From Acidobacteriota bacterium (GTDB lineage Bacteria; Acidobacteriota; Vicinamibacteria; Vicinamibacterales; UBA2999), in contig JAUSDY010000005.1 of the NCBI GenBank assembly GCA_030650395.1, forward strand, positions 1-49,683: a stretch of DNA of 49,683 nt, in the 5' to 3' direction. Made by a program: the position numbers and the translations under genes. A model generated the notes under the pieces. The model was not told the origin of the DNA. It worked only from the letters and a program-made list of their open reading frames with translations, and ran no database searches. This document shows, in pieces, positions 1,243 to 48,226 of the stretch. Position 1 is the stretch's first letter, and every line of letters begins with the position of its first letter.

Positions 1243-3765
1243 CTATCTCACCGTCGTCGGCGGGCGGCGATGTCTGGTCGCCCGCTCGTAGGCCGCGGCT
1301 AATTCGAGCAGCCGCTTGTCGTCCCACATCCGGCCAAGCAGCGAGATTCCCATCGGATAGCGTCCGCCGATGAAGCCGGCCGGCACCGTGACTTGCGGCA
1401 AGCCGGTGGCCGCGCTCTCTTCGCAAGTCCCCGGCTCCGAGCCGTAACGCTCGAGCCCACCTTCATGCGTGTGCGGGCGCGCGTGGTTGGCGGGGTACAG
1501 AATCGCATCGAGCTTCTGCTGATCCATCAGGTCGACGAAGACCTGCCGGAACGTTTCGCGGCCCGCGACGAACCGGCGCGTGGCTTCGTCGAGCGCAGCG
1601 CCCGTCGGTGGCGGCGCGAGCGCCCCTTCGAGCCGGCGCGCGCTGACCGGGGCGAGCTTTCCTGACGCGAGCAGATCCTGGATGGTAAGGACCTTGTCGC
1701 CGGGCTTCGAGCCGCGCGACAGATACGCCGTCCACCCGGCGTGCAGCGATCCCGGCGCCGCACCCCTCGCGGTCGCGTACTTCGCGTCGTAGTCGGGAAT
1801 AACGACGTCGACAACGATCGCGCCGTGGGATTGCAGCTCCTTGATGACGCGGTCCATGCTGTCGGCAATCTCGCGCTCGCCGGTGAAGCCGACAAAGCGC
1901 TGGCGCAGCGCGCCGATGCGCTTACCTTTCAGGCTGGCGGCGTCGAGATCCTGCGCGAACGAGCCCGAGATGTGCGAGCCGGCTTCGGCGGTCACCGGAT
2001 CTTCGGGGTCGCTGCCGGTGACGAGATCGAGAGCCAGGGCGACATCGCGCACGGACTTCCCCATCGGTCCGACCGCATCGTTGTAGGTGTTGAGCGGCAT
2101 CACGCCGGCGCGGCTGGTCAACCCGCGCGTGGTGCGAATGGTCGCGAGCGACGCAAAGGCGCTCGGGTTCGAGAGCGAGTTACACGTGTCGGTGCCAAAG
2201 CCAAGCGCGGCGAGGCTGGCAGCGACGGCGGTGGCGCTGCCGCCGCTCGAGCCCGCGGTCGACAATGACGGATCGTAGGCATTGCCGACGGTGCCGCCGA
2301 CCGTGCTGATGCCGAAATCGCCGAACGGGAACTCGTCGAGGTTGGCCTTGCCGAGCACGACCGCGCCACCGCGCTTCATGCCGGCGGCGACGCGCGAATC
2401 GAGCCGCGGGCGGTGATCGAGCAGGGCGGCAGATCCGCCGGTCGAGGGCAGTTCGATGGCGTCGATGTTGTCCTTGAAGACGATCGGGATGCCGTGAAAA
2501 GGGCCGCGCGCGCGGCCTGCTGCGCGCTCGGCATCGCGGCTGCGCGCGTCGGCGATCGCGCGCGGGTTGGTCGCGAGCACGGACCTGAATGCCGGCCCGT
2601 TGCGATCGTAACGCGAGAGCCGGGCGAGGTACTCGCGCGTGATGTCTTCGGACGTGGTCTCGCCCTTCGCCATCGCGTTCTGCATGTCGGTGACGCTTCG
2701 CTCGAAGACAGAGAACGGCTCGGAGGACTTGAGGGCTTCCACCCCAGCGCGGGTGCCGCGCTGGGGGCCCGGCTGAGGGCTTGGGGGCTTGAGCGGCCAG
2801 TTCACGATTTGCGACTGCTGCAACGCCGTCAGGCCACGCAGATCGGGCTCCTTCGCCAGTTGCCGGGCGACGCCGGTCACGCGCGCGATTTCCGATCCGG
2901 CTGCAGGCACCGTCTTATCCGCGCCGGCGTAGATCGCTTCACCGGTGACCAGCGCGTCCTTGAACGGCATGGGATATCCACCGCGCGGGTCGTAGACCTC
3001 GCTCAGCCCCTTGACGACAAACGTGACGAGCGCCGAGGTGTCGCCGGGTCGAAGGCGAAGCGTGAACACATAGCCGATGTGGGCGGGATCGTAGCCGGGC
3101 CACTGGTCGAGGAAGGGATCGCCGAACATGTCGCCAATCGCGGTGAGCACTCCCGTCCTCGAACCGAGCACGTGCGCCGAGGGGCCGTGCCCTGACGGGC
3201 CGCTCATCGGATCCGAAACGCTTCGAGCGTTTTGCATGACGGTCACGAAGCTGTCAGCCAGATCGACACGGCGGTCGCCATCAGACGTCGCCGCCACCGC
3301 CACTCGCCCGCCATCGTCAAACGCGCCGGCGGCGCCGCCCCACGCCACTTGCAGCAGCCGCTCTTCGTCCGAGGTATTCGTGAAGCTGTCGAAGTAACGC
3401 AGGTAGCTGGTGTCTTTCGATGTCGTGATGCCACGGGCGATGAGGATGCCGTCCTGCAGCACGGGCGTGATCGAATCGAAGCGGCCCGCGCCGTCGTGCG
3501 CCAGCCCGAAGCCCTTGAGGTAGTGATTACGCGTCAGCGTGGAGTTATCGGCGCGCTTGACCTGTAGTTTCAGGTAGCCGAAGCCGTTGAACGGGTTGGC
3601 GCGCCCGCCGGTGGCGATGCCGCCGCTGTCTTGCGCCCACGGCGAGGTGTCCTGGATGTCCCAGAACTGGCCGTCGGACGAAGGCACGCGCGTCACCGCG
3701 CCGGTGCTCATCACCATTAAGACGGCGCCGGTCACACCACGCGCGAGGGTCGTCAGGGATCGCAT
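1243..3765 (-). CDS. Exported amidase-signature hydrolase with an uncharacterised N-terminal domain
   Basis: An 840-residue protein. An N-terminal signal sequence is followed by a domain of about 300 residues that I do not recognise (rich in beta and loop, with GWGGAAGAFDDGG-like patterns), a repeat-derived linker, and an amidase-signature domain from about residue 350. Catalytic elements are present with family spacing: Lys in VFKDNID near 430, the cis-Ser in GSSGGS near 505, and the nucleophile region GTDTCNSLS near 530. The usual DTGGS is replaced here by DTCNS. The family hydrolyses C-N amide bonds. An ATG at 3765 is chosen over the TTG one codon upstream because a TAGACT hexamer lies exactly six bases before it. 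The gene diverges from the TolB-amidohydrolase, suggesting a shared catabolic role. Substrate unknown. Confidence 0.85.
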   Translation of the reverse strand: MRSLTTLARGVTGAVLMVMSTGAVTRVPSSDGQFWDIQDTSPWAQDSGGIATGGRANPFNGFGYLKLQVKRADNSTLTRNHYLKGFGLAHDGAGRFDSITPVLQDGILIARGITTSKDTSYLRYFDSFTNTSDEERLLQVAWGGAAGAFDDGGRVAVAATSDGDRRVDLADSFVTVMQNARSVSDPMSGPSGHGPSAHVLGSRTGVLTAIGDMFGDPFLDQWPGYDPAHIGYVFTLRLRPGDTSALVTFVVKGLSEVYDPRGGYPMPFKDALVTGEAIYAGADKTVPAAGSEIARVTGVARQLAKEPDLRGLTALQQSQIVNWPLKPPSPQPGPQRGTRAGVEALKSSEPFSVFERSVTDMQNAMAKGETTSEDITREYLARLSRYDRNGPAFRSVLATNPRAIADARSRDAERAAGRARGPFHGIPIVFKDNIDAIELPSTGGSAALLDHRPRLDSRVAAGMKRGGAVVLGKANLDEFPFGDFGISTVGGTVGNAYDPSLSTAGSSGGSATAVAASLAALGFGTDTCNSLSNPSAFASLATIRTTRGLTSRAGVMPLNTYNDAVGPMGKSVRDVALALDLVTGSDPEDPVTAEAGSHISGSFAQDLDAASLKGKRIGALRQRFVGFTGEREIADSMDRVIKELQSHGAIVVDVVIPDYDAKYATARGAAPGSLHAGWTAYLSRGSKPGDKVLTIQDLLASGKLAPVSARRLEGALAPPPTGAALDEATRRFVAGRETFRQVFVDLMDQQKLDAILYPANHARPHTHEGGLERYGSEPGTCEESAATGLPQVTVPAGFIGGRYPMGISLLGRMWDDKRLLELAAAYERATRHRRPPTTVR
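2724..2793 (-). repeat. In-frame repeat forming the amidase interdomain linker
   Basis: The linker between the two amidase-protein domains is encoded by CTTGAGGGCTT-type words flanking a perfect 11-bp stem (2742-2752 with 2756-2766, loop GTG). The same word family fills the 24839-24904 spacer. The segment stays in frame and encodes a Pro/Gly-rich linker. Confidence 0.55.
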
Positions 3766-3771
3766 CAAGGG

Positions 3772-3781
3772 AGTCTATACT
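3772..3781. promoter_or_regulatory. Overlapping divergent -10 elements of two leaderless genes
   Basis: Only 22 bp separate the ATG codons at 3765 (minus) and 3788 (plus). On the plus strand TATACT (3776-3781) is followed by six bases and then the ATG. On the minus strand TAGACT (3777-3772) is also followed by exactly six bases and then an ATG. The two hexamers overlap within the near-symmetric AGTCTATACT. No Shine-Dalgarno sequence sits at the right distance and no clear -35 box is visible. Leaderless divergent transcription is an inference. Confidence 0.5.
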
Positions 3782-3787
3782 CCTGCC

Positions 3788-6700
3788 ATGCGCACTGAAA
3801 AATTGTCCCTTTTCCTGTTCCTGGTGTGCCTGATTGGCCTCGTTCCGTTGCGAGGACAGGATCGGCAGCCCGATGACGCAAAGCCGGTCGAGGGCTTCAC
3901 GTTGAAAACGGCCGAGACGATCGAGTTTTCGACCGACGAAGTGACGTGGATGCAGGTCGACGTGTCGCCCGACGGACGGACGATTCTGTTCGACCTGCTG
4001 GGCGATCTCTACACGATGCCGATCGCCGGCGGCGAGGCCACGCGCATCATGGGCGGGCTGTCGTTCGAGAGCCAGCCGACCTGGTCGCCGGACGGCAAGA
4101 GCATCGCGTTCCTGACCGACCGCACAGGCATCGAGAACCTGTGGATCGCGAACGCTGACGGGTCGAGCCCGAAAGCGGTCAGCAAAGACGGCAAGACCAA
4201 CGATCGCCCGCAGATCATGGTCTCGCCGGCTTGGACCCCCGACGGCCAGTACATCGTCGTGTCGAAGTCGCGGCCGCCGGAGCCCGGCACGTTCGGGCTA
4301 TTCATGTATCACCGCGACGGCGGCACCGGCGTTCGCATTGGCGCGGCGCCGCCGCCGCAGCCGGGACCCGACGCGCAAGGGCCTCCGCCGGCACCGCCCA
4401 TCAACAAGATGGGCGCCGTGGTGTCGCCCGACGGCCGCTTTATCTTTTACACGCAACGGACCCTGTCGTTCACCTATAACGCGCGGTTCCCGCTCTGGCA
4501 GATCTATCGCCACGATCGGGAAACGGGTGACGTGACGCAGGTCACCAACGCCCAGGGCAGCGGCATTCGCCCCGCGATTTCTCCCGACGGCAAGTGGATG
4601 GTGTTCGGGACGCGCCACAAGGCGCAAACCGGCCTGCGCGTCCGCAACCTCGAAAACGGCACGGAGCGATGGCTCGCCTATCCGGTCACGCGCGATGACC
4701 AGGAATCGCGCGCCAGCCGCGATACGCTCCCCCGCTACGATTTCATGCCCGACGGCAAGTCGCTGATCGTCCCCGTCGCCGGCAAGCTGCAGCGGATCGA
4801 TTTCGAAACCGGCGCCGCGACGCCGATTCCGTTCACGGCCAAAGTGCAAGCCGAGATCGCACCGCGGGTCTACACACCGGTACGTGTTGAGGACGGCGCT
4901 ACCGTTCGCGCGCGGCTGATCCGGTGGCCATCGGTGTCACCCGATGGCAAACAGCTGGTGTTCTCGGCAATGAATCGCCTTTACATCAAGGACATGCCGT
5001 CGGGCACACCCCGCTTGCTGACGCGCTCGGACAAACCTGACCTGTCCGCCGTAGCGCCCGGCGCGAAGGTGGAAGGTTTGTCCCCACAACACGAAGGCGA
5101 GTTCATGCCGTCGTGGTCGCCGGATGGCCGATCGATTGTCTACACCACCTGGACCACGACAGGCGGGCACATCAAGAGGGTGGCGGCAGCCGGCGGAGCG
5201 CCCCAGACGCTGACGCGGAGCGAAGGCTATTACCTCGATCCCGTTGACACACCTGATGGCGCGCGCGTGGTGTTCCTGGCGGGCGCCGCGTCGGATCAGC
5301 TCTATTCGATCCTGATGGACACGCCTCCCGAGAACGATCTCGAAGGCGACGAGCATGCGCCGCGCGAGATCGGCGGCGTGAACCCGCCCAACACGCTCGA
5401 GATTCGATGGATGCCGGGGGCCGGCGGTGCGTCAACGCTGGTGGCGTCCGCGCAGAACGGCCGCGGGCCGCATTTCTCGAGAAAGGATTCCTCGCGCGTC
5501 TACCTGACGACCAATCGCGGACTGCAGTCGATCACCATGGATGGCTACGACCGGCGTACGCATCTGCGTATTACCGGGTCGGGCCCGGGCAACAACCCAC
5601 CGGGCGCCGGCGAGATCCGGCTGTCGCCGGACGGCACGCGCGCGTTCGTGAGCCTGCAGGAGAAGCACTACCTCGTGAACGTGCCCCGGGCGGGACGCGA
5701 GACCGTGGAAGTGCGGGTGCAAGGCCGCGCCGACAACGCCTCCGTGCCCGTGAAGCGCATGTCGCTCGATGGCGGCGACTATCTCGACTGGACCGCCGAC
5801 GGCAACGCCGTGACGTGGGCGTGGGGCGCCCAGTTCTTCCGCCAGGACCTCGACGCCGACGAGCCACAGAAAACCGACGTGGTCGTGGAAATGCCGCGAT
5901 CGCGGCCGAAGGGATCCGTGCTGCTGACCGGCGCGCGCATCATCACGATGAAGGGCGCCGACGTGCTGCCACAGGGCGACATCCTGGTGACCGACAACCG
6001 CATCGCGGCGGTCGGGCGACGCGGATCGCTCACCGCGCCCGCAGGCACGCGGACCATCGACGTCGCCGGCAAAACGATCATGCCCGGCTTCGTGGATGCG
6101 CACTCACACATGTGGGCGCCGCGCGGGCTGCACCAGACCGAGGTCTGGCAGTACCTGGCCAACCTCGCCTACGGCGTGACCACGACGAGGGATCCGCAGA
6201 CCTCCACACCGGACGTGTTCGCCTATGCCGACATGGTGGATGCGGGAATGATGCCCGGACCGCGCGTCTACGCGACAGGCCCGGGCGTGTTCTCGGGATC
6301 GGGCATCGAAGACCGTGATGCGGCGTTCCGCTTCGTCAAGCGCTACAAAGAGGCCTACAAGACCAACACCCTCAAACAATACGTGGCCGGCGACCGCATC
6401 GTCCGGCAGTGGATCATCGAAGCGTGCAAGGAGTACGGGATCACCGCGACGATCGAGGGTTCACTCGATCTCAAGCTCAACCTCACGCAGATGGCCGACG
6501 GCTACTCAGGCCAGGAGCACAGCTTTCCGATCGCGCCGCTCTACAAGGACGTGACGACGTTCGTGGCGAAGACCAAGACGTTCTACACGCCGACGATCCT
6601 GGTGGCGTACGGCGCGCCGTGGAGCGAGAACTACTGGTTCGAGAACGAGAGCCCGGCGACCGATCCGAAGCTGCGGAAATGGATCCCTTGGGAGCTGCTC

Positions 6701-7150
6701 GACGGCATGGTCCGCCGGCGGCAGCAGTGGTTCCTGCCGGAGGAATACGGGCACCAGCTGATCGCCAAGGGCGTCGCCGATATCGTGCACGCGGGCGGGC
6801 GGGCCGGTCTGGGCAGTCACGGGCAGCTGCAGGGGCTGGGCGCGCACTGGGAAACGTGGAATCTGGCGTCGGGCGGGCTGACGCCGCACGAAACGCTGCA
6901 GGTCATCACGATGCACAGCGCCGAGGCCATCGGCCTTCAACAGGACGTGGGTTCGCTGGAAGCCGGCAAGCTCGCGGACCTGCTCGTGCTGGATCGCAAT
7001 CCGCTCGAGAACATCAAGAACACGAATTCGATCCGTTACGTGATGAAGAACGGCGAGATCTACGAGGGCGACACGCTCAACCGGATCTGGCCAGACAGCA
7101 AGGCGCTGCCGAAGCAGTTCTGGTGGGGGACCGAGCCGAAGAACGAATAA
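3788..7150 (+). CDS. Exported TolB-propeller amidohydrolase
   Basis: A 1120-residue protein with a signal peptide (MRTEKLSLFLFLVCLIGLVPLRG). It then has WD40/TolB-like blades marked by repeated WSPDGK / VSPDGR motifs, and a C-terminal amidohydrolase barrel. The barrel opens with VLLTGARIITMKG and carries the metal-binding HxH in GFVDAHSHMW (His772, His774). It ends with the usual return to the small beta domain (GSLEAGKLADLLVLDRNP). Related acidobacterial proteins are thought to act on cyclic amides or peptides in the periplasm; the substrate is not deducible here. The start at 3788 gives a clean signal peptide; upstream in-frame starts would overlap the divergent amidase. Residues 415-434 come from an inserted palindromic element (see 5029-5088). 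The gene is followed 27 bp later by an SSS transporter. Confidence 0.9.
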   Translation: MRTEKLSLFLFLVCLIGLVPLRGQDRQPDDAKPVEGFTLKTAETIEFSTDEVTWMQVDVSPDGRTILFDLLGDLYTMPIAGGEATRIMGGLSFESQPTWSPDGKSIAFLTDRTGIENLWIANADGSSPKAVSKDGKTNDRPQIMVSPAWTPDGQYIVVSKSRPPEPGTFGLFMYHRDGGTGVRIGAAPPPQPGPDAQGPPPAPPINKMGAVVSPDGRFIFYTQRTLSFTYNARFPLWQIYRHDRETGDVTQVTNAQGSGIRPAISPDGKWMVFGTRHKAQTGLRVRNLENGTERWLAYPVTRDDQESRASRDTLPRYDFMPDGKSLIVPVAGKLQRIDFETGAATPIPFTAKVQAEIAPRVYTPVRVEDGATVRARLIRWPSVSPDGKQLVFSAMNRLYIKDMPSGTPRLLTRSDKPDLSAVAPGAKVEGLSPQHEGEFMPSWSPDGRSIVYTTWTTTGGHIKRVAAAGGAPQTLTRSEGYYLDPVDTPDGARVVFLAGAASDQLYSILMDTPPENDLEGDEHAPREIGGVNPPNTLEIRWMPGAGGASTLVASAQNGRGPHFSRKDSSRVYLTTNRGLQSITMDGYDRRTHLRITGSGPGNNPPGAGEIRLSPDGTRAFVSLQEKHYLVNVPRAGRETVEVRVQGRADNASVPVKRMSLDGGDYLDWTADGNAVTWAWGAQFFRQDLDADEPQKTDVVVEMPRSRPKGSVLLTGARIITMKGADVLPQGDILVTDNRIAAVGRRGSLTAPAGTRTIDVAGKTIMPGFVDAHSHMWAPRGLHQTEVWQYLANLAYGVTTTRDPQTSTPDVFAYADMVDAGMMPGPRVYATGPGVFSGSGIEDRDAAFRFVKRYKEAYKTNTLKQYVAGDRIVRQWIIEACKEYGITATIEGSLDLKLNLTQMADGYSGQEHSFPIAPLYKDVTTFVAKTKTFYTPTILVAYGAPWSENYWFENESPATDPKLRKWIPWELLDGMVRRRQQWFLPEEYGHQLIAKGVADIVHAGGRAGLGSHGQLQGLGAHWETWNLASGGLTPHETLQVITMHSAEAIGLQQDVGSLEAGKLADLLVLDRNPLENIKNTNSIRYVMKNGEIYEGDTLNRIWPDSKALPKQFWWGTEPKNE
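5029..5088 (+). repeat. In-frame 60-bp nested palindromic element, copy 1
   Basis: The outer arms are GACAAACCT / AGGTTTGTC followed by CCCAC (GTGG on the other strand). The inner palindrome runs TCCGCC...GGTGGA around GTAGCGCCCGGCGCG. It encodes DKPDLSAVAPGAKVEGLSPQ inside a propeller region. Its reverse complement matches 41768-41827 at 58 of 60 positions. The flanking protein reads through naturally without it (LLTRSD...EHEGEFMPSW). Confidence 0.85.
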
Positions 7151-8605: not shown

Positions 8606-8621
8606 CCTCCTGTTGGTCTTT

Positions 8622-10556: not shown

Positions 10557-10563
10557 AGAAACT

Positions 10564-10587: not shown

Positions 10588-10591
10588 TGGC

Positions 10592-11338: not shown

Positions 11339-11644
11339 CTAGATCAACGTATCGCCAAGCTTGCGCGCGATCGCCTCCGCGGTGGCTTTCAACACGTAGA
11401 CGTGCTTGCCGGTGGGCACGTAGGGTCCGTTCTGCTCGGTACTGCCGGCGACGATGAGGGCGGTGGTCTTCCCCGCTTTCATCGCGTCACGTACTTCCAT
11501 CCACGTCAGCTCTTCGATCCACACGCTGTCGTGCGCCGCAATCGGTCGCGGCGTGGTCAGGTCGAACGCGCGCCGCTGGGCGATGGCGCCGGCAGCCACC
11601 AACAGCACAGCGCCCGCGGCCATCACAATCCGAAATCGCGTCAT
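11339..11644 (-). pseudogene. 5' fragment of a creatininase-family gene
   Basis: A 101-residue frame with a signal peptide (MTRFRIVMAAGAVLLVAAGAIAQ) and the opening of a creatininase fold: SVWIEELTWMEVRDAM, then VAGSTEQNGPYVPTGKH. The Glu of the metal site is visible. The next ligand position has Asn (EQNGP) instead of the usual His. The family is normally about 240-280 residues, and the remaining metal ligands lie in the missing two thirds. The frame ends DTLI-stop and the SDR ATG follows immediately, so the rest seems to have been deleted at this junction. It overlaps the upstream esterase stop by ATGA. A functional short protein is unlikely. Confidence 0.75.
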
Positions 11645-13032
11645 GGGACAATCCTCAATTCCGCACCATAGAGCGTGGTGCGATCGTTATCGCGCGCCGA
11701 CCAGCGCAACAGCACGGCCGGGTCTGGTTTCACCATCCCGCTGAACGCCGGTTTGCCGTTGACGGTGACGGTCACTGGTTTGGAGAAGTCGATCGCATCC
11801 GGCGAGAGCAACACCGTGAACGCGCCCACGTCGCGCGTCGTGGCGTCGAACGTGTTGCCGGCGCGGACGATGTCAACGCGGCCTGAGCGCTTGGTGTGCT
11901 GGAAAAACCCCATGTCTTTGAGCGGGCTGGTGCGAGTGGCATCCTGGCACAGCTCGTTGATCACCAGCCAGCGATTGCGGTTGAACTTGTCGACGCGCTC
12001 CGTTTCCCACGACAGCTTCGCCGGATGCGCCGCGCGCGGATGCTCGCGCACGAACTGCTCGAACGGCTCGCGCTCGGTCGGCCACCACGCGGTGTTGTGC
12101 CCGGCGCCGGCCTGCGGCCGGAACAGGTGCGAGACGCCAAGGGTCTGGAACCACTTGAGGTGCGGCTCGACCTGATCGACGGGATAGAGCGGATCGTTCT
12201 CGCCGTTCACGATATAGAGCGGCGCATTCGACAGGTTGTTGCCGTGCATCTCGCCGTCGGCGCCGTTCTCGGGGTGCCGAATCACGGCGATGCTGCCGTT
12301 GAGCGGCAGGTACGACGACCACAGATTGGGCTCCTTCAGCGCCATGTAATACACACCGGTGCCACCATCGGAGATACCGGTGACGTAGATCCGAGATTCG
12401 TCGATGTTGTATTTCCGCTTCAGCGCATCAACCGCTCGCAGGACGTTGTCGATCTGCTCTTCATCCCACCACTGCGCCGCGGCCCAGCCGCTGGGGTGCA
12501 GATAGATTTGTTTTTCTCCCGCAATGCGATTCGGTGCGCCCGACAAACCTAAAGGTTTGTCGCCACCAGTGGGTCGGCCGGGCGCGACGGCGTTCGGTGA
12601 CGGCCGTGCCACGCCGCCATGCAGTTGCACGCGCAGCTGCAGCGGCTTCGACGGATCGTAGTCGGCGGGCACGTCGACCACGTTATTGAAGAACGGGCCG
12701 GACTTCGATCGCCACCGCAACGAGTACTCGCCCCGCTTTTCGTCGAGGTAGGTGCGGCCCTTCTCGAGCCGCGCGTAGGCGGTGTCGAACGCCACGCCCG
12801 ACGCCGCAATCTGATCCGCCGCCACGAGCGCATCGGCGGGACTCTCTGCCGCGAAGAATTTGTCGAACAGCGCGTCCGCGGGGGCGGGCGCCTGCGCCGA
12901 CAGGCCCGCCACCAGCGCGAGGGCCAAAACAATGCCAGTAGGGCACCCCTTTCCGCCTTCGCGCGAAGCGCTTCGGCGAGACCTCGCCGTAGCCTTGGCG
13001 GAGGCGGGTATGGGGTGCCGCATCACTCTCAT
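11641..13032 (-). CDS. Exported alpha/beta-hydrolase esterase with two inserted repeats
   Basis: A 463-residue secreted hydrolase. The oxyanion region is LRVQLHGGV, the nucleophile elbow is VTGISDGGTG, a probable acid lies in NGENDPLYP, and His in GAGHNTAWWP completes a Ser-Asp-His triad. The C-terminal about 100 residues form a small beta domain. The layout resembles PHB-depolymerase-like esterases; substrate unknown. The start at 13032 overlaps the NUDIX stop (ATGA). The n-region of the signal peptide is extended by about 25 basic residues encoded by the repeat at 12938-13019, before the hydrophobic GIVLALALVAGLSAQ core. A second insertion adds GGDKPLGLSG ahead of the nucleophile region. 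Both keep the frame, and the catalytic motifs are intact. Confidence 0.85.
   Translation of the reverse strand: MRVMRHPIPASAKATARSRRSASREGGKGCPTGIVLALALVAGLSAQAPAPADALFDKFFAAESPADALVAADQIAASGVAFDTAYARLEKGRTYLDEKRGEYSLRWRSKSGPFFNNVVDVPADYDPSKPLQLRVQLHGGVARPSPNAVAPGRPTGGDKPLGLSGAPNRIAGEKQIYLHPSGWAAAQWWDEEQIDNVLRAVDALKRKYNIDESRIYVTGISDGGTGVYYMALKEPNLWSSYLPLNGSIAVIRHPENGADGEMHGNNLSNAPLYIVNGENDPLYPVDQVEPHLKWFQTLGVSHLFRPQAGAGHNTAWWPTEREPFEQFVREHPRAAHPAKLSWETERVDKFNRNRWLVINELCQDATRTSPLKDMGFFQHTKRSGRVDIVRAGNTFDATTRDVGAFTVLLSPDAIDFSKPVTVTVNGKPAFSGMVKPDPAVLLRWSARDNDRTTLYGAELRIVP
12542..12566 (-). repeat. In-frame GACAAACC palindrome in the esterase
   Basis: GACAAACCTAAAGGTTTGTC at 12542-12561 followed by GCCAC. 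On the coding (minus) strand this is GTGG, one C, and the hairpin with loop CTTTAG. It encodes GDKPLGLS in frame. It is the simplest copy of the family also found in the amidohydrolase, TPR and heme A synthase genes. Confidence 0.8.
12938..13019 (+). repeat. Nested palindrome in the esterase signal-peptide region
   Basis: GTAG (12938-12941) precedes GGCACCCC (12942-12949), whose complement GGGGTGCC lies at 13012-13019. Between the arms sits a second palindrome, CCGCCTTCGCG...GGCGGAGGCGG. The outer arms match those of the intact element at 23617-23640, where the loop is only AAA. The inner sequence matches the insert family at 22343-22415. So one element appears inserted in the loop of another. 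Confidence 0.75.
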
Positions 13033-20213: not shown

Positions 20214-20263
20214 AACAGTGACCTCGGAGCCTTGGATGGTCCGAAGTCACCAGATGGTTGGAA

Positions 20264-20288
20264 GGCGGGTCTAAAGACCCGCCTCTAC
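20264..20288 (-). repeat. REP-like palindrome, GGCGGGTC stem
   Basis: GGCGGGTCTAAAGACCCGCC (20264-20283) followed by T and CTAC. On the minus strand this reads GTAG, then A, then the hairpin with loop CTTTAG. It sits in the spacer between the first HEAT protein gene's upstream partner and its downstream neighbour (20214-20296). Confidence 0.75.
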
Positions 20289-22770: not shown

Positions 22771-23607
22771 TTACGAAACCGGGAGCCGCTGCGCAGGTCG
22801 ATCGCCAGCCTCGCGATCGGTTCGGTTTCGTTGACGCATCTCCGAGGCGATCACGCGGACGCGGAACAGCAGGTCCTCGGTCGTGATTCTCGATTTCAAG
22901 TCAGACAACTCGTTAGACGTGACATCTGCCGGCGCGTTGGCAATCTCGAGCAACACGCGCTCGAGGTCTTCGAGGATGTCGGCAATCGCCCCGTCGCCCG
23001 ACTGCTCGGCCGACTGGCGCATCAACCGGTTGGCGGCGACGAGATCCGACGCGCGCGCCTGCTCGCCGGCGAGCTGATCGAGTTGATCGGTGTCGGCGTT
23101 GACCAGCTCGACGAGCATCATCTGCGTGCGATCGAGGTGATCGCCGACGGCGGCATGCAACACGCGCTCGGGTGAGGCCGCGGCCCGCTGTGGCGCCGGC
23201 AAGACGACGTCGGTGCCGTTGGAGATGCGGCCGGCCATGAACGCCACCACGACGAGAGCCGCGACGCCGCCGGCCAGCGCCCATTGCGGCGCCCAGAAGA
23301 ACGTGCGCCATCCGCCTTCGCGCGTCGCGCTTCCACCTTCGCGCACAGCGCTTCGGCGGACAAGCCGGCGGACAAGGCCCTCGTCGAGCTGCGGCTCGAG
23401 CCGCGCCCACACGTCGCGCTCGAAACCGGGACGCGCGTCAACCGGCGGCGCGCTATCGACCAGCGTGAGCACGCGATGCAAACGGGTGTTGGCCGCCTCG
23501 CATTCACCACACGACGCGAGGTGCTCGGCGAGGCGCGGCGCGGCGGCGCGAGGCGTCTCGCCGTAGTAGTGGAGGATGAGTTCTTCTTCCGACAGATGGT
23601 TCGTCAT
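22771..23607 (-). CDS. Zinc-finger anti-sigma factor, membrane-anchored
   Basis: A 278-residue protein starting at ATG 23607 (MTNHLSEEELILHYYGE). The cytosolic N-terminal zinc-finger anti-sigma domain carries H-x3-C-x2-C (EHLASCGECEA), which binds and holds an ECF sigma factor. One transmembrane helix (WALAGGVAALVVVAFMAGRI) leads to a C-terminal helical domain of about 130 residues, presumably periplasmic. Upstream in-frame codons run back through a palindromic repeat and are rejected as a start. The juxtamembrane segment RLVRRSAVREGGSATREGG is encoded by the repeat 23312-23373. The gene lies 40 bp after the sigma factor gene, with a REP-like hairpin between. Confidence 0.88.
   Translation of the reverse strand: MTNHLSEEELILHYYGETPRAAAPRLAEHLASCGECEAANTRLHRVLTLVDSAPPVDARPGFERDVWARLEPQLDEGLVRRLVRRSAVREGGSATREGGWRTFFWAPQWALAGGVAALVVVAFMAGRISNGTDVVLPAPQRAAASPERVLHAAVGDHLDRTQMMLVELVNADTDQLDQLAGEQARASDLVAANRLMRQSAEQSGDGAIADILEDLERVLLEIANAPADVTSNELSDLKSRITTEDLLFRVRVIASEMRQRNRTDREAGDRPAQRLPVS
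23312..23373 (-). repeat. In-frame CCGCCTTCGC repeat in the anti-sigma gene
   Basis: Two partial copies of CCGCCTTCGCG / GCTTCGGCGGA words in frame just before the transmembrane helix. They add about 19 mostly basic residues on the cytosolic side. Confidence 0.6.
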
Positions 23608-26597: not shown

Positions 26598-26610
26598 AAT
26601 CTGCGGCCCG

Positions 26611-27196: not shown

Positions 27197-27198
27197 GG

Positions 27199-27644: not shown

Positions 27645-27656
27645 GGCGTGATTATA
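27645..27656 (-). promoter_or_regulatory. TATAAT-N6-GTG start for hicBA
   Basis: On the minus strand a perfect TATAAT (27656-27651) is followed by CACGCC and the GTG start. There is no room for a Shine-Dalgarno sequence, and no clear -35 box 17 bp upstream. A leaderless hicBA transcript is inferred. Confidence 0.55.
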
Positions 27657-27702
27657 GCGCGTCGACCTTTCGCCAGGATCAGTCTGCCGCCGGCCGGCCC
27701 CG

Positions 27703-29138
<1,436 letters not shown>

Positions 29139-29180
29139 CGCGGAACGAGCACCGCGGTGCGATTCAGATCAGCCCAGGCG

Positions 29181-29687: not shown

Positions 29688-29841
29688 CAGGCGACTGGTC
29701 GTGGAAGGCCTGGCGCAGGCGTGTCAAGCTCTCGGCCCGTTCGGCTAGCAGGCGCAACCTCGTGGAAAACGTCTCGGCATCCAGCGGGCGAATCGGCGAC
29801 CGGTCAGGCTGCACGCCGGTCCAGTCGATCGTCTCTGCCAT
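29635..29841 (-). CDS. Small partner protein of the nucleotidyltransferase
   Basis: A 68-residue protein ([20 protein letters not shown]..., then [28 protein letters not shown]). It has a helical, charged core and a Pro/Ser-rich tail. It precedes and overlaps the NTase gene, the usual position of a cognate antitoxin or partner. The tail after QSPDG overlaps the NTase coding region and might not be ancestral. A TATCAT-N6-ATG element precedes it. Function unproven. Confidence 0.55.
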
Positions 29842-29858
29842 GGCCTGATGATATCAGG
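29842..29858 (-). promoter_or_regulatory. TATCAT-N6-ATG start with CCTGAT palindrome
   Basis: Minus strand TATCAT (29853-29848), CAGGCC, then ATG 29841. The box lies inside the inverted repeat CCTGAT-GAT-ATCAGG (29844-29858), a possible autoregulatory operator. The whole unit is only 12 bp long between remnant A's stop and the start codon. Confidence 0.45.
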
Positions 29859-30145
29859 GCTTCCTTAGCAACGCCGGCCAGTTGGTGACGAGCGTGCGTC
29901 GACCTTCTTGAGCTTGCCGCCGGCATTGAATCCGACCAGGCGGCTGTCGGGCGCCAGCACCTGCGCTTCACGGCTGAAGCGGGCGAGCCGATCGGGTCGT
30001 AGGCGACCGCGGGCAACAGCACCTTGATCGCGACGTCGCGACTCAGCTTGGTATCGCGAGCGCGATATACCTCTCCCATTCCGCCGACCCCGAGAGCGGA
30101 GAGGATTTCGTAGGCGCCAAGTCGAGAGCCGATGATCACCGCCAC
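29854..30145 (-). pseudogene. Collapsed Ser/Thr kinase-propeller gene (remnant A)
   Basis: Starts at GTG 30145, seven bases after the near-complete kinase gene. The N-lobe is present ([51 protein letters not shown]). Then, after a frame change, a single piece of propeller ([21 protein letters not shown]) leads straight to the tail [12 protein letters not shown] and stop at 29854. About 90 percent of the normal gene is missing through at least two deletions. Confidence 0.72.
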
Positions 30146-30152
30146 AGACTGC

Positions 30153-32913: not shown

Positions 32914-32953
32914 GGAGATCAGCAGTCAGGAGAAAGAATTTCTCCTGATCTCC
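32914..32953. terminator. Hairpin after the trehalose gene cluster
   Basis: TCAGGAGAAA (32926-32935) pairs with TTTCTCCTGA (32939-32948) around GAA. Outer GGAGATC (32914-32920) and GATCTCC (32947-32953) words extend the symmetry. It is the same word family as 8567-8605. It lies between the GH15 stop and the kinase gene, and the segment to 32989 holds further CTCCTG words. Confidence 0.55.
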
Positions 32954-32989
32954 TGGCCTCCTGTTTCGTTGTCCTGGTCTCCTGTTCAG

Positions 32990-40545: not shown

Positions 40546-42303
40546 CTATTTCTTCGTGCTGTACAAATCGTCGCCGAGGGCGACGTCGGCGTCGGCCCAG
40601 GCCTTGTCGAACAACGCTTTAGTCGCCGCCGCGTCGGCCTTCTTTTGCGCCTGGAGGCTGCGCCACAAGCCAAACAGCGAGCGCGGGTTGCCGACGTTCT
40701 TTTTCAGGTCGGCGCGGAACACGCGCTCGGCTTCGGCGTGTTTGCCGGCCTTGATCAAGGTCGCGCCGAGCCGCTCGCGCTCCGGGATCAACCAGTCGGG
40801 CGGCTCGTTGTAGCCGAGTCGATCCTCGGCGGCCACGGCCTTCGTGAACCCCGCAATCGCGCCAGCCGTATCACCCTTCGCTTCCGCAATGCGCGCGGTG
40901 AGATCGGTGATGGCGACGGCGATCACGTCCGCGGCGGAATTGGCCGGCCCGAGCATCGCGTCGGCGGGAATCTTCGCAGCCGATTGCTTGAGCGCCGCGA
41001 GCTCGGCCTCCGCATCCGCCGTTTTGCCCATGCCAACCAGCGCCGCGCCCCGTGCGAAGTGATAGAGCGAGGTTTGCATCGCGCGCGTCGGCGCGGGCGC
41101 CTTCGAGCCGAGCACCAGACCCCACATGCCAAAGCGGGTCGCCACCGCGAGCTCCATCGCCGCAAACGGCTCGATCATCACCATCTGATCGGCGATCGGA
41201 TCCGCGAACTGGACCGTGCGTTGCGCCGCAGCCTGCGCCTGTGCGAGGTTGCCGGAAAACATCGCGGCGGCGGATTCGAACTGCAGGTTGTGGCCGTAGT
41301 ACATCATCGGATATAAGCCGGTGGCGCCGGTAGCCTTGATGTACTTCTCATCGACCACCGCAGCGTCAGCATTGCTCTTGGCCGACTTTGCGTATTCTCC
41401 GGTGCGAATGTAGATGTGCGCCGGCATGTGGACCAGATGGCCCGCGCCGGGCACGAGCGTTTCGAGGCGCGCCGCCGCCGCAACGGCACGCTCTGGTGAC
41501 TTCGATGCCTCGACGGCGTGAATGTAGTAGTGATTCGCCCCCGGATGTTGCGGGTTCGCCTTCATCACGCGCTCGAGCGTTCCGACGATGGTCGCGGTAT
41601 CGGGCGCGGGCGTGCCATCTGACTTATAGAACTTCCACGGGCGAAGGTTCATCAGGCTTTCGGCGTAGAGCGTCGCCACATCAAGGTCGTCGGGGAAGCG
41701 CTTCGACAGCGCAGCCATCGCATTCGAGTACGCCTGCTCGCGAACGGCTTGAGCGGCGGCAAACACCTGTGGGGACAAACCTTCCGCCTTCGCGCCGGGC
41801 GCTACGGCGGACAAGTCAGGTTTGTCCACATAGCGCTTGCCAAGTGCGGCCACGAGACCCTGCTCGACTTCGCTGCCGGCCGCCTTGCGCTTCTCGGCTT
41901 CGGCAAGATGGCCATACCCCTGCTTCAAGCGTTCCGCCGGCGCGATGTCGTTGATGTTGGTGCCGAGCGCCAGCGACATGCCCCAATGCGGCATCGGCGC
42001 AGCGGGGTCGAGCGCCGCGGCGCGCTCGAACGACTTGAACGACTCGTCGTGGTTGAAGCCGTACAACAGCGTGAGCCCCTCGTCGAAAAACTTCTGGGCC
42101 TCGGCGTTCGAGGTCTTGATCGGGCGCTGATAGGTGCCGAGGTTTCCCAGCAGCGTTGTACGGGGCCCGGCCGCGGGCGCGGCAGGATGATCGCCGGCGT
42201 GCGCCGACTGGTTAGTCGGCGCCGGCAGTTCCGGCCTCTTGGCGCAAGCGACAACACCGCTCAAGGCAACGGCCGCGACGATGGCGAGGGCGCGCAGGCT
42301 CAT
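40546..42303 (-). CDS. TPR-repeat lipoprotein
   Basis: A 585-residue protein. ATG 42303 overlaps the heme A synthase stop (ATGA). The N-terminus (MSLRALAIVAAVALSGVVACAKRPE) has a lipobox-like VVAC, so it is likely a lipid-anchored periplasmic protein. TPR units are spread along the length (AQKFFDEGLTLLYGFNHDESFKSFERAAALDPAAPMPHWGMSLALG, then HPGANHYYIHAVEASKSPERA and HAEAERVFRADLKKNVGNPRSLFGLWRSL). An inserted repeat encodes DKPDLSAVAPGAKAEGLSPQ after GKRYV (41768-41827). Function unknown; the translational coupling suggests a link to heme A synthase or cytochrome oxidase assembly. Confidence 0.82.
   Translation of the reverse strand: MSLRALAIVAAVALSGVVACAKRPELPAPTNQSAHAGDHPAAPAAGPRTTLLGNLGTYQRPIKTSNAEAQKFFDEGLTLLYGFNHDESFKSFERAAALDPAAPMPHWGMSLALGTNINDIAPAERLKQGYGHLAEAEKRKAAGSEVEQGLVAALGKRYVDKPDLSAVAPGAKAEGLSPQVFAAAQAVREQAYSNAMAALSKRFPDDLDVATLYAESLMNLRPWKFYKSDGTPAPDTATIVGTLERVMKANPQHPGANHYYIHAVEASKSPERAVAAAARLETLVPGAGHLVHMPAHIYIRTGEYAKSAKSNADAAVVDEKYIKATGATGLYPMMYYGHNLQFESAAAMFSGNLAQAQAAAQRTVQFADPIADQMVMIEPFAAMELAVATRFGMWGLVLGSKAPAPTRAMQTSLYHFARGAALVGMGKTADAEAELAALKQSAAKIPADAMLGPANSAADVIAVAITDLTARIAEAKGDTAGAIAGFTKAVAAEDRLGYNEPPDWLIPERERLGATLIKAGKHAEAERVFRADLKKNVGNPRSLFGLWRSLQAQKKADAAATKALFDKAWADADVALGDDLYSTKK
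41768..41827 (-). repeat. In-frame 60-bp nested palindromic element, copy 2
   Basis: GTGGGGACAAACCTT... through inner CCGCCTTCGCGCCGGGCGCT to AGGTTTGTCC. It is 58/60 identical to the reverse complement of 5029-5088. Although the host genes lie on opposite strands, the element has the same orientation relative to both and is read in the same frame. It encodes DKPDLSAVAPGAKAEGLSPQ. Confidence 0.85.
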
Positions 42304-43256
42304 GTCGTTTGTCTCCAGCTCAATAAGAACAACACCGTTTCCGCGCCCAGCAACAGGCTTGCGATAGTTAGATGCAGAACCTGGGCGGCCAGTAACAGGG
42401 AACCATACGCCATCACCACCCCGACTGCGACCTGAAGGGCCGCCAACGTAAGGACAGCGTACGACCAGCGGACGAGCGGTGAATGTCTCGATACCAGCCA
42501 CGCCGTCAGCAAGACGGCGCCGAGGAGCACGGCCATCGCCGCGTCGCGATGGGCGTAGTCGAGCCAGCCGACCGTGGCGAGCGCATCGGCACGCGCGGTG
42601 CCGGCATCGAGCGCGGCATCAACGCCGCCCCGGACCTGCGTACCGAGCGCGATCTGGATCAACGTGATCACGATCAGCACGCTGATCGACAAACCTAAAG
42701 GTTTGTCGCCACGTAAAGGTTTGTCGCCACCTGAGGGCTGTGGGGACAAACCTTGCTGTGGGGACAAACCTTTAGGTTTGTCCTGGGCGACGACGGTGAC
42801 ATACAACAGCATCTGGACGATCACGAGCGCGACGATCATGTGGATCGTCACGATCCACGCGGCGAGCTCGTGCGCCACGACCCGGCCGCCCAACCATCCC
42901 TGAAATCCCGTCAAGAGCAGCGCCGCGATCGCCGTCCAGAGAATGCGCGGCTCGCGGCGATGGTGGCGCCAGGCCGAGACCACGGTCGCGAGAATCAGGA
43001 ATCCCACTGCCATACCGAGCAGGCGATTCAGGTACTCGGTCCACATCAGCGTGGGGTTGAACTGCGACGCGTCGAACTGCGGCGGCAAGTCTGCCGCCGA
43101 CAGCGGCGGAATCCAGCCGCCGAAGCAGCGCGGCCAGTCGGGGCAGCCCAGCCCCGCGCCGGAGGCGCGAACCAGGCCGCCCACCAGGATCAGGAAATAG
43201 GTGATCGCCGTCGTCCACAGGGCGAGGCGCTGGAAAGATGACAGCCGATGAAACAT
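42300..43256 (-). CDS. ctaA: Heme A synthase (COX15/CtaA family)
   Basis: A 318-residue polytopic membrane protein of the COX15/CtaA family, which oxidises the C8 methyl of heme O to make heme A for cytochrome oxidase. Visible are the first helix (ALWTTAITYFLILVGGLVRASGAGLGCPDWPRCFGGW, with a Cys pair), LVAHELAAWIVTIHMIVALVIVQMLL, LGTQVRGGVDAALD, the heme-ligand type DYAHRDAAMAVLLGA, and QVLHLTIASLLLGAE in the last helix. A loop between two helices holds about 35 residues encoded by four repeat copies (42688-42783). The gene diverges from an ADOP permease with a 29-bp gap. Confidence 0.88.
   Translation of the reverse strand: MFHRLSSFQRLALWTTAITYFLILVGGLVRASGAGLGCPDWPRCFGGWIPPLSAADLPPQFDASQFNPTLMWTEYLNRLLGMAVGFLILATVVSAWRHHRREPRILWTAIAALLLTGFQGWLGGRVVAHELAAWIVTIHMIVALVIVQMLLYVTVVAQDKPKGLSPQQGLSPQPSGGDKPLRGDKPLGLSISVLIVITLIQIALGTQVRGGVDAALDAGTARADALATVGWLDYAHRDAAMAVLLGAVLLTAWLVSRHSPLVRWSYAVLTLAALQVAVGVVMAYGSLLLAAQVLHLTIASLLLGAETVLFLLSWRQTT
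42688..42783 (-). repeat. Cluster of four GACAAACC elements in frame in heme A synthase
   Basis: Full palindromes at 42688-42707 and 42758-42783 plus half copies at 42713-42730 and 42740-42754, in both orientations. They encode DKPKGLSPQ, GLSPQ, DKPLR and DKPLGLS in frame within an extramembrane loop. Confidence 0.82.
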
Positions 43257-43285: not shown

Positions 43286-45739
43286 ATGGCCATCCTTACC
43301 GATCTCAGGCACGCCGTCCGCCTTCTGGGCCGCAGCCCGGTGTTCACGCTGACGTCAATCGCGTCGCTGGCGATCGGCATTGGCGCCGCGGCCACGATCT
43401 TCAGCCTGACCGACGCACTGCTCTTCAAGCCGAGCGCGGGCGTCCGCAACGCGTCCGAAGTGGTCGATATCGGACGATCCGACGAAGGTAGTGGCTTCGA
43501 CAACATGTCGCACCCGCGGTTCAAGTACCTGCACGATCACACGCAGTCGCTGGTGTCGATGGCGGCGGTGGATTTCGGCGGCGGCCCGATGAGCCTCGGC
43601 GAGAACGGATCCAGCGAGCGCATCTTCGGCACGCTGGTCTCGGGCAATTACTTCGACGTGCTCGGCACGCGGCTGGCGCTCGGGCGATTCTTCCGGGCTG
43701 ATGAAGACACCATCCCCGACGAGCGTCCAGTCGTGGTGTTGAGCCACGCCTTCTGGCAACGCCGCTTCCACGGCGACCCCGACATCCTGCACAAGCCGAT
43801 GCGGCTGAACAACCGCGACTTCGCGGTGGTCGGCGTGGCCGAGCCCGGCTTTCTGGGTGCGTCGCTGGTCGGCACCGACGTGTGGGTGCCGATGGCTATG
43901 GTGGCGAACGTTCGCGGACTGCCCACCTCCGACATGCTGACCGAGCCGGGAGGCGTCTGGCACGTGGCGATCGGACGCTTGAAGCCCGGCGTCGCGAAGG
44001 CGCAGGCCCAGGCAGAGTTGAACACGCTGAATGCGGCGTTCAATCAGGCTGAGCCGCGCGCCAATCAACGCCACACGATCGCGGTGATCGGCACGAGCAA
44101 GGTCCCCGGGCCGGTGCGGCTGCCTTTCCTGGCGTTCATTGGTTTTCTGTTCGCACTCACGGGCGCGCTGGTCGCTATTGCCTGCAGCAACGTCGCCGGC
44201 ATGCTGCTGGCGCGCGCGGCCACGCGGCGCCGCGAGATGGCGACGCGTCTCGCGGTGGGCGCCAGCCGCGGGCGGCTGATCGGGCAGCTGCTGACCGAGA
44301 CGCTGGTGCTCTTTGCGGCGGCGGCGATCGCCGCCTTGCCCATCACGCTCTGGTTGATCGCCGGGCTCGAAGGCTTTCTGCCGGCGCTGCCCGTGATCAT
44401 CGATCTCGACTTGAGTGTCAACTGGCGGGTCCTGACCTTCGTCGGCGGCCTCGCGCTCGTCACCGCGATCGTGTTTGGCCTGGCGCCGGCCCGTCATGCG
44501 CTCGGCGCCGACCTGGCGCCGATGCTGCACGGCGCGCACTCGACCGCCGATCGCCGGCGCTTCCGCCTGAGAAACTCGCTCGTGGTGGCGCAAGTCGCGC
44601 TCTCGTTGATGCTGGTCGTGATCGCGTTCCTGTTCGTGCGCACGCTGCAGGCGGCGACGACGATCGACCCGGGATTCGAAACGGCGAACATTCAAATCGC
44701 GTCGGTTGACGTCGCGCTCTCGGGTTACCGCGAGCAGGCGGCGGTCGCGCTCGCGGAACGATTCGAAGAGCGGTTGCGGACCATCAGCGGCGTGACCTCG
44801 GTCGCCACCGCGCGGATGATTCCCATGCAGGGTGGCGGACTGGGCCTGGGCCGCATCACGGTTCCCGGGGTGGCCGGGACCGAACAGAATGGCTCGTGGG
44901 ACGCCGACTGGGACATCGTGTCGCCCGATTATTTCCGGACCATCGACATGGGTGTCGTCGAAGGGCGCGCGTTCACGGCCGCGGACCGCGAGGGTGCGCA
45001 GCAGGTCGCCATCATCAATGCCACGTTCGCGCGAAGGGCATTTCCTGGACAGACGGCGATCGGACGCCATCTGATGCACGAGGTCGGTGAAAACGAGATT
45101 CGTCGGCTCGAGATCGTCGGCGTGGCGCAGGATGCCAAGTACCGCTACATCAGCGAGACAGGCCGGAACTTCATCTACGTGCCGCTGCGACAGCACCCGA
45201 GCAGCCGCCTCGAATTCTTCGTCAAGCATGCGGCCGGCCGGCCGATGGCGCAGGACATCCGCTCGGCGTTTGCCCAGGTCGAATCAAACGTCCCGATCGT
45301 CATGCTGCAGTCGTTTGACGACGCGACGGCATTGGGGCTGTTGCCGCAGCGGCTCACCGCCTGGATTGCGGGCAGCGTAGGGACGATTGGCGTGTTCCTC
45401 GCCGCGCTGGGCCTTTATGGCCTGATGGCGTTCCTGGTGGCGCAGCGCACGCGCGAAATCGCGATCCGCATGGCGCTCGGCGCGTCAAACGGGAACATGC
45501 AGTCGATGGTCTTGAAGCAAGCCGCGCGGCTCGGTGTGATCGGGGGCATCGTCGGCTTGGTACTCGCCGGCGCGATTGGCATGCTGGCGCGAAGCCTGCT
45601 GGTGGGCGTGCCGCCGATCGATCCGGTGGCCTTCGGCGGTACGGCACTGCTGTTCGGCGCTGTGCTTACGCTCGCCGCATGGTCACCTGCGCGGCGAGCG
45701 GCCGCGACAGATCCAGCGACCGCTCTCAGGGCGGAATAG
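43286..45739 (+). CDS. ADOP-type duplicated ABC permease (MacB/FtsX family)
   Basis: An 817-residue membrane protein with two FtsX-type permease halves. The N-terminus (DLRHAVRLLGRSPVFTLTSIASLAIGIGAAATIFSLTDALLF) is the MacB periplasmic-core entry. VALSHAFWQRRFHGDPDILHKPMRLN, then three helices around ACSNVAGMLLARAATRRREMATRLAVGASRGRLIGQLLTETL form the first FtsX domain. A second core domain and the C-terminal IAIRMALGASNGNMQSMVLKQA follow. Such orphan duplicated permeases are expanded in Acidobacteriota. They lack their own ATPase gene here and may transport or sense peptides or lipids at the envelope. ATG 43286 is chosen; the upstream in-frame start would overlap the ctaA 5' end. Confidence 0.9.
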   Translation: MAILTDLRHAVRLLGRSPVFTLTSIASLAIGIGAAATIFSLTDALLFKPSAGVRNASEVVDIGRSDEGSGFDNMSHPRFKYLHDHTQSLVSMAAVDFGGGPMSLGENGSSERIFGTLVSGNYFDVLGTRLALGRFFRADEDTIPDERPVVVLSHAFWQRRFHGDPDILHKPMRLNNRDFAVVGVAEPGFLGASLVGTDVWVPMAMVANVRGLPTSDMLTEPGGVWHVAIGRLKPGVAKAQAQAELNTLNAAFNQAEPRANQRHTIAVIGTSKVPGPVRLPFLAFIGFLFALTGALVAIACSNVAGMLLARAATRRREMATRLAVGASRGRLIGQLLTETLVLFAAAAIAALPITLWLIAGLEGFLPALPVIIDLDLSVNWRVLTFVGGLALVTAIVFGLAPARHALGADLAPMLHGAHSTADRRRFRLRNSLVVAQVALSLMLVVIAFLFVRTLQAATTIDPGFETANIQIASVDVALSGYREQAAVALAERFEERLRTISGVTSVATARMIPMQGGGLGLGRITVPGVAGTEQNGSWDADWDIVSPDYFRTIDMGVVEGRAFTAADREGAQQVAIINATFARRAFPGQTAIGRHLMHEVGENEIRRLEIVGVAQDAKYRYISETGRNFIYVPLRQHPSSRLEFFVKHAAGRPMAQDIRSAFAQVESNVPIVMLQSFDDATALGLLPQRLTAWIAGSVGTIGVFLAALGLYGLMAFLVAQRTREIAIRMALGASNGNMQSMVLKQAARLGVIGGIVGLVLAGAIGMLARSLLVGVPPIDPVAFGGTALLFGAVLTLAAWSPARRAAATDPATALRAE

Positions 45740-45924
45740 GAAGATCTATTGATCTCGTGAGCTGTTGAGCGGTTGATCTGTCTGTTGATCTGCTGACTGG
45801 TGATCGCTCGATCTCATCTCTCGATCTACGAGAGATCGGCAGATCGTTCGAGAGATCGCAAGCTCAACAGATCAACAGACCTATCAAGAGCTCACCACAT
45901 CAAGAGATCGCCAGATGTGCCGTC
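45740..45924. repeat. GATC-dense palindromic spacer between convergent genes
   Basis: This 185-bp gap contains twelve GATC sites within words such as TTGATCTG and GAGATCG. A perfect 12-bp inverted repeat (45781-45792 with 45868-45879) encloses a local hairpin ATCTCTCG / CGAGAGAT (45816-45823 with 45829-45836). It is probably a bidirectional terminator; it resembles the 1102-1242 spacer. Confidence 0.6.
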
Positions 45925-48151: not shown

Positions 48152-48226
48152 GCCGCAGATGATATTCAACCAGGGCCACAGATGACACAGATAACGCAGA
48201 TCACTTTATGGGATAGCATCTGCGGC
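48152..48226. repeat. Inverted word repeat in the STT3/asparaginase divergent gap
   Basis: GCCGCAGATG (48152-48161) pairs with CATCTGCGGC (48217-48226), and CACAGATGACACAGATAACGCAGAT words lie between. It occupies nearly the whole 89-bp divergent gap. A GGGGG tract follows as a possible ribosome binding site for the plus-strand gene. Confidence 0.55.

Follow-up and report, generated by a model that had tools for sequence, protein, structure and literature searches.

A REP-type palindrome with a second palindrome nested in its loop and its in-frame copies in genes of an Acidobacteriota genus

Small repeats inside bacterial genes are known from enterobacteria (PMC2759123, PMC2229807), and intragenic REPs from Opitutus terrae and Rickettsia conorii (PMC3733652). 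The family reported here comes closest to the GTAG-family REPs whose tag, stem, and loop are set out in section 5 of PMC3733652, where GTGG is the tag of most O. terrae GTAG-20 elements. As that paper portrays it, O. terrae GTAG-20 (Di Nocera et al. 2013) shares with our family an unpaired GTRG tag, a short stem, a TY loop, a high copy number, inverted dimers, and some copies in open reading frames (ORFs), including DNA-repair and tRNA-related genes, but the family here has another stem, belongs to another phylum, and carries a second palindrome in its loop. Some GTAG families in the same account have long self-complementary loops, which we set beside our inner palindrome by description and not by sequence. 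A second likeness is to the Rickettsia palindromic elements (RPEs). RPE-1 to RPE-7, as PMC3767692 outlines them, are palindromes that lie in frame in housekeeping genes, in exposed areas, and different element types can occupy one site in orthologues. RPEs belong to Rickettsia/Wolbachia hosts and measure 100 to 150 bp (PMC3767692), whereas the elements here, compared with them by description rather than by sequence, measure 22 to 60 nt, come from environmental Acidobacteriota, and have a tag and a RAYT context.

The kind of element is therefore already known, that of REPs living in genes as RPEs do. What appears undescribed within our literature searches are these families, their single frame, how far they reach into the core genes of an Acidobacteriota genus, and, most of all, the nesting of a single palindrome, mostly of codon-multiple length, in several REP families. 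Among the matches listed by full-text searches, no title or abstract start named these sequences, and 13-mers of the inner element brought up only one rhodopsin paper, with one 13-mer.

The window, the whole stretch of 49,683 nt that was analyzed, comes from the genome designated G000. It contains two 60-mers, at 41768-41827 (+) and 5029-5088, that are reverse complements of each other at 58/60 positions (97%). They lie in the same orientation and phase in two long ORFs for unrelated proteins, a TPR lipoprotein and a beta-propeller/amidohydrolase (TolB), and both translate to DKPDLSAVAPGAK(A/V)EGLSPQ, as the first-pass annotation had reported. Both fold as strong hairpins (z of -3.6 to -5.7 versus shuffles). 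With up to one mismatch, GACAAACCT matches 17 times in the window versus 5.1 expected, a number reached by 0/100 shuffles, and a 64-bp query against the whole genome returned 41 matches at E <= 7e-6, some to the inner part only. Protein homology, which the annotation had already discounted, is ruled out as the cause because the hosts are unrelated, copies are dispersed over unrelated hosts and intergenic DNA, and several orthologues are empty. The annotation had named two outcomes that would speak against a mobile element, no further copies in the genome and a peptide carried by all orthologues. Neither was found: the genome has more copies, and the peptide is missing from some of the orthologues examined. 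Dispersed copies and empty orthologues bear out a repeated DNA element persisting within coding sequence. The single 60-bp element, on the other hand, resolves into two nested ones, a REP shell and an inner palindrome (the core); of the phrase "mobile or gene-converted," the repeated element stands, and conversion between copies may also act. The proposed resemblance to RPEs holds for behavior only, because the tag, stem, and loop make the shell REP-type.

We consider it very probable that the 60-mer is a composite mobile palindrome, a RAYT-spread REP shell with a core, whose in-frame survivors sit in tolerant protein loops. The shell would have spread within one Acidobacteriota genus, most likely in trans through a Y1/HUH RAYT acting on its single-stranded hairpins, and a distinct core palindrome, mostly 30 or 33 nt long, would have entered the loops of the shell and of other REPs. 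Intragenic copies would survive only if the frame is kept and the peptide is hydrophilic, flexible, and in a tolerant loop, so that purifying selection rather than targeting presumably fixes the frame. The elements and host genes of the window are collected in Table 1.

Table 1. Elements and host genes in the window
Feature	Position	Strand	Parts	Context
Composite	41768..41827	+	GTGG tag 41769-41772; REP left arm 41773-41782; inner 33-nt palindrome 41783-41815 (inner strand -); loop remainder and right arm 41816-41827	Within TPR lipoprotein gene (gene on -)
Composite	5029..5087	-	Left arm and loop 5029-5040; inner 33 nt 5041-5073; right arm 5074-5083; tag 5084-5087 (GTGG on - strand)	Within TolB/amidohydrolase gene (gene on +)
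Short REP	12541..12566	-	Stem 12541-12562; tag 12563-12566	Alpha/beta-hydrolase (Peptidase_S9) gene; read GDKPLGLS
REP cluster	42687..42783	.	Two full short REPs (42687-42712; 42758-42783) and two half sites	Within ctaA
Inner palindrome in a second inner palindrome	23311..23376 (outer limits approximate, set by eye)	-	Inner 23332-23362	Within gene 22771-23607
Second-REP short copy	20263..20288	-	AGGCGGGTCT..AGACCCGCCT; GTAG tag on - strand	Intergenic
Host gene	3656..7150	+		PD40 beta-propeller and amidohydrolase
Host gene	40546..42303	-		TPR lipoprotein; TPR_2 match below Pfam cut-off
Host gene	42300..43256	-		CtaA, heme A synthase (COX15-CtaA, PF02628)
Host gene	11641..12927	-		Alpha/beta hydrolase (Peptidase_S9/DLH)

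The window also holds other repeats. At 26600-32880, several diverged direct repeats of ~40 to 230 nt (D1-D9) probably correspond to paralogous gene segments in tandem. The family CAGGAGATCAGGAGAA..TTCTCCTGATCTCCTG has members at 8567-8614, 10557-10596, and 32926-32965 and is palindromic at 8567 and 32926. An inverted repeat (58 nt, 76%) rich in TTGATCTG-like units lies between two genes at 45739-45921, and short direct repeats of CAGGGCCGCAGATGACACAGATGACGCAGATC lie at 47227-47288 and 48171-48202.

Judged by its sequence, the shell of the composite is a REP-type element of the GTRG-tagged kind. Its consensus has a GTGG tag on one side, a 10-bp stem (SGACAAACCT/AGGTTTGTCS), and a TY loop. Alignment of 30 genome copies gave GTGG-S-GACAAACCT...AGGTTTGTC-S around the core, CTTGTCCGCCGWAGC...GCGAAGGYGGA, and the single-stranded tagged form is written GTGG-SGACAAACCTTYAGGTTTGTCS. 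The pattern GACAAACCT-N(0-30)-AGGTTTGTC has 127 matches in G000 and 102 in its sister genome G001, and the reversed control pattern has 0 in G000. Exact short copies with a two-base loop number 114 and 89, respectively, a high copy number like that of GTAG-type REPs. By the two-base-loop pattern, the shell is found in 6/162 genomes and 1/86 genera of the order, which is presumably Vicinamibacterales; by a looser pattern, it is found in 7/43 genomes of the family, all in the same genus, and two of the nine genomes of that genus have no shell by either pattern.

Anatomy was scored in 86 shell copies of G000, taken from the window, from four further contigs (797,925 bp in total), and from 51 loci. 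The loci were picked because they bear copies, the contigs are the longest among those already known to hold one, and the detector misses degenerate copies (e.g., L026 and L027). GTGG stood on exactly one side in 81/86 copies and on both sides in none (25/29 on one side in G001), and the base opposite the last G of the tag was C in 0/81 (32.5% expected) and in 1/25 in G001, so that the tag is unpaired and at one end, as in GTAG-type REPs. The closing pair was C-G in 45 and G-C in 35 of the 86 copies. Short loops read on the tag strand were TTTA in 37 and TTCA in 9 of 53 parsed copies, which gives a TT or TC loop in 46/53. At 26 nt with its tag and with a 10-bp stem, the short form has the size, stem, and loop of a GTAG-type REP, a size that the 59-nt composite exceeds. 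The inverted dimers of GTAG-type REPs are represented by the cluster in ctaA, which is in inverted arrangement and encodes DKPKGLSPQQGLSPQPSGGDKPLRGDKPLGLS.

Two further features concern the ends of the shell. Terminal direct repeats of 3 to 6 nt, the target-site duplication of DDE-type MITEs, were present at the assumed ends of 0/81 copies. The cleavage dinucleotides of TnpAREP are CT and CA, and in the REPtron model of PMC8266576, the GTGG tag of Marinomonas goes with CA or CC. An unpaired tag with CT or CA 3 nt upstream, the likeness to the REPtrons portrayed there, was seen in 38/81 copies (10/35 for intergenic copies alone; background, 10.5%), and CT at -3 accounts for 20/81, which departs from the GTGG prediction of the Marinomonas model.

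The core is a separate palindrome within the REP loop and measures 33 nt in 29 sampled composites, including two with a mismatch in an arm. When the 33 nt are excised, 28/29 composites retain a loop that is common among short REPs (TTTA in 20, TTCA in 3, and TGAA, which is TTCA on the other strand, in 5; the last retains CTTA). This boundary is partly set by construction because the cut site was defined by requiring AGG after the core. In a composite outside the sample (C52:20927), the core is ~34 nt long. The core also occurs alone and more widely than the shell, in 21/43 genomes and 12/24 genera of the family and, by a stricter pattern, in 16/396 genomes and 9/210 genera of the phylum. Cores, partly with other loops (e.g., CCCGCAGG), were also seen outside the class but in the same phylum (G153, G285, G309, and G054), which suggests wider or horizontal spread.

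The shell is one of several homes of the core. The five contigs have four sites at which the core sits in the loop of GTAG-AGGCGGGTCT, a second REP; the core also lies once in the loop of a AGGCAACCC REP (G006, L153), where AG does not follow it, and once, as a variant, in that of a CGTCCGGCT REP (G003, L313). It is also nested in other core copies (C171:73982, C1:156375, C48:170232, and window position 23332), and at the place of the last one G001 reads RLVRHSLGEGGW, one inner element alone. In GACAAACC REPs, those of the shell family, and in AGGCGGGTCT REPs, the core stands just 5' of AG; its usual lengths overall are 30 and 33 nt. Flanking arms of at least 8 nt were found at 9/35 inner copies versus 21/3000 random positions; five of the nine are GACAAACC composites, which are arm defined, leaving 4/30 as the free test. 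Free core length was a multiple of three in 17/18 intragenic copies versus 7/12 others (Fisher p 0.026), counts that retain the intragenic row C137:128832 although it is probably a chance match. Its presence in the loops of four REP families and in itself leads us to offer, tentatively and at somewhat less than even chances, that the core is an autonomous mobile element targeting single-stranded REP-hairpin loops, a hyperparasite of REPs. If so, it could enlarge a resident intragenic REP without breaking the protein, since insertions of 30 or 33 nt add whole codons and the frame survives its entry.

Many copies lie inside genes that seem to work, some of them essential. Among the hosts with Pfam support are IGPS/TrpC, a threonine-dehydratase-like PLP enzyme, PurH, a PurL-like AIRS protein, MutS2, TruA, GcvT, an ABC-F-like ATPase, gamma-glutamyltranspeptidase, a P450, and leucyl-tRNA synthetase (LeuS). 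For the last, G000 yields a single match at E <= 1e-50, and the gene contains two tandem short elements; the alignment breaks at this site in all seven congeners with a match (G001 has none), and LeuS of G003 is continuous through the site and lacks the element. Between conserved blocks of PurH, there are 22 residues in G006 and G002, 45 in G000, and 46 in G001. Three relatives have 22 codons at the TPR site. Two more, with a short element or the decayed remains of one, have 30, and the window has 41, which is 33 nt longer than in those two. The first-pass annotation had expected orthologues to reveal precise insertion boundaries; orthologues without the insert were recovered, but none of those compared offers a clean scarless empty site, and the flanking codons also differ. 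Set against solved structures, the inserts in IGPS, the PLP enzyme, LeuS, and PurH fall at alignment gaps or breaks. In CtaA, the element occupies a loop whose length varies among orthologues even without it, and the structural model places two confident helices around the element, which is itself disordered (pLDDT <50 at 164-166 and 169-174). The model of the TPR lipoprotein is weak (pLDDT 65.7).

Several shared sites differ in a way that bears on how copies arise. The TolB site holds a composite in G000, a short element in G001, inner elements only in G003, and neither in G006 and G007. The GcvT and MacB sites likewise have the composite in G000 and the short form in G001. At the L042/L148 site the two forms trade places, the short one being in G000 and the composite in G001, and there the G/C closing pair has switched in both tandem units. 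More generally, species that share a site may have a different base in the loop or a different closing pair there, which could reflect gene conversion. Such exchanges would be expected if copies were spread or homogenized mainly by gene conversion or recombination between palindromes, with short and composite forms interconverting in place. We regard this account as rather unlikely, since relatives without the element at the TPR, TolB, LeuS, and PurH sites imply that these sites were gained or lost. The arms, at ~11 bp, are also short for homologous conversion.

For the preferred RAYT-spread composite, a mobilizer was sought in nine genomes of the genus. None of the Y1/RAYT loci fetched from them, in one set of 30 and another of 14, has a RAYT flanked by a GACAAACC REP, in which respect the family differs, within this sample, from REPtrons; GACAAACC elements lie 0.9 to 1.3 kb from a Y1 gene at L031, L209, and L223. 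G000 has only one Y1 transposase (its only PF01797 match), which scores 61 to 63 bits against the NCBIfam RAYT cut-off of 80. This Y1/HUH gene (L047:4606-5752, on C1) has 61-nt terminal inverted repeats (TIRs) that are 92% identical, and two short GACAAACC REPs and a half site lie ~1.3 kb downstream, not at its ends. Being TIR flanked and below the cut-off, it was rejected as an own-genome RAYT mobilizer. The arrangement is that of the TIRYTs mentioned in PMC3733652, also for Koribacter versatilis, except that the TIR of the G000 gene differs from the REP. The 60-mer had no match in plasmid and phage collections. K. versatilis is itself an acidobacterium.

Sibling REPs do accompany RAYT genes of the genus. 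Of 13 RAYT loci over the cut-off that were examined, three have GTRG-tagged hairpins on both sides, which matches the arrangement given for REPtrons in PMC8266576. At L312 (G005), a AGGCGGGACT REP lies on one side and AGGCGGGTCT and AGGCGCAACT REPs lie on the other, the AGGCGGGTCT REP and close variants thus flanking a RAYT in this congener; AGGCAACCCC REPs lie on both sides at L317 (G007), and CGTCCGGCT REPs, one with an inner-like element, do so at L313 (G003). A further REP family, GTAG-CGACGGCTAAAGCCGTCG, was seen near RAYT genes at L308 (G006; five copies) and L318 (G005). We infer RAYT mobilization of the GACAAACC family from this shared anatomy, because no RAYT with a GACAAACC REP was found. 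The missing cognate RAYT would also suit an RPE-type palindrome or a DDE-transposase MITE whose mobilizer is unrelated to RAYTs, and in-frame survival in housekeeping genes and in exposed loops matches RPEs as PMC3767692 and PMC3733652 depict them. The unpaired one-sided GTGG tag, the TY loop, the lack of terminal direct repeats, and the siblings of the same architecture beside RAYTs nevertheless make this alternative improbable.

Intragenic copies are read in a single frame. In G000, the 38 intragenic shell copies, 18 short and 20 composite in 33 genes, without exception read xDKP...GLSx, as do 14/14 in G001 (13 genes), a set that is partly not independent, at least 6 of the 13 host genes sharing the site with G000 (S9, PurH, GcvT, P450, MacB, and L042/L148). 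Short inserts encode xDKPxGLSx, and those with a core encode xDKPFLSAEAPxAKAEGLSx or xDKPSAFAxGASADKKGLSx; these peptides, read from the gene sequences, would be neutral linkers. Genes were called with a simple codon-usage script trained on 112 ORFs, and only copies in an open frame enter the frame count: gene-breaking insertions would be classed as edge or intergenic and so drop out of the intragenic class, for which reason open frames were weighed. Of the 20 composites, 17, all in different genes, can be read without a stop in any of the three gene-strand frames, giving a chance of 8e-9 for the observed frame, a figure free of tandem-copy dependence. The 18 short copies have two open frames in 15 cases and three in 3, and the product of 1/open frames over all 38 copies is 4.4e-15 when tandem copies in one gene are treated as independent. 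In-frame persistence in ORFs of unrelated conserved proteins (LeuS, TrpC, PurH, and others) is also the habit of RPEs. The single frame is a feature of the copies sampled here; our comparison with the O. terrae family, as PMC3733652 presents it, leaves its frames aside.

One frame in 38/38 and 14/14 copies is also what would be seen if the DKP...GLS peptide were a functional module, selected and copied as a linker or signal, but we hold this to be very unlikely. Genes appear to be avoided: in the four contigs other than the window, the 25 shell copies divide into 14 intergenic, 5 at a gene edge, and 6 intragenic, versus 86.5% coding (P 2e-12); including the window, which was chosen for its copies, 11/30 were intragenic. 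GTAG-type REPs, for comparison, lie mostly between genes. Called gene edges account for 10/86 sampled copies, which may include broken genes. Moreover, the scanned hosts have no common function, orthologues lack the peptide, and the second REP gives a different one, GGSxDPP, in one frame at 6/6 distinct intragenic sites in G000 (three with a core). That count takes C137:139099 as the same site as 139114, includes the untagged C48:163460, and places the frame-2 row C1:121193 and the untagged intergenic C171:100585 and C48:47121 outside the family. The few intragenic copies and their shared frame favor purging by selection over targeting, and selective removal of bad insertions would fit better. 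As for chance similarity, which the shuffles and the genome copy number rule out, an assembly artifact, or MAG contamination, G000 is a 180-contig assembly but is 98.4% complete and 0.9% contaminated, with >100 copies on many contigs, a family that recurs in other genomes of the genus, and a pattern that shuffles do not yield, so that we dismiss them.

On this reading, core enzymes of an environmental lineage distant from Rickettsia would have gained peptide loops from tiny selfish palindromes, and one of these enzymes is a leucyl-tRNA synthetase that the genome encodes once. Because two REP families are each seen in one frame only, they amount to a natural experiment on the insertions that proteins tolerate. 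That the same palindrome sits in loops of several REP families raises the question of what places DNA into hairpin tips, and the congeneric RAYTs beside sibling REPs make that question testable.
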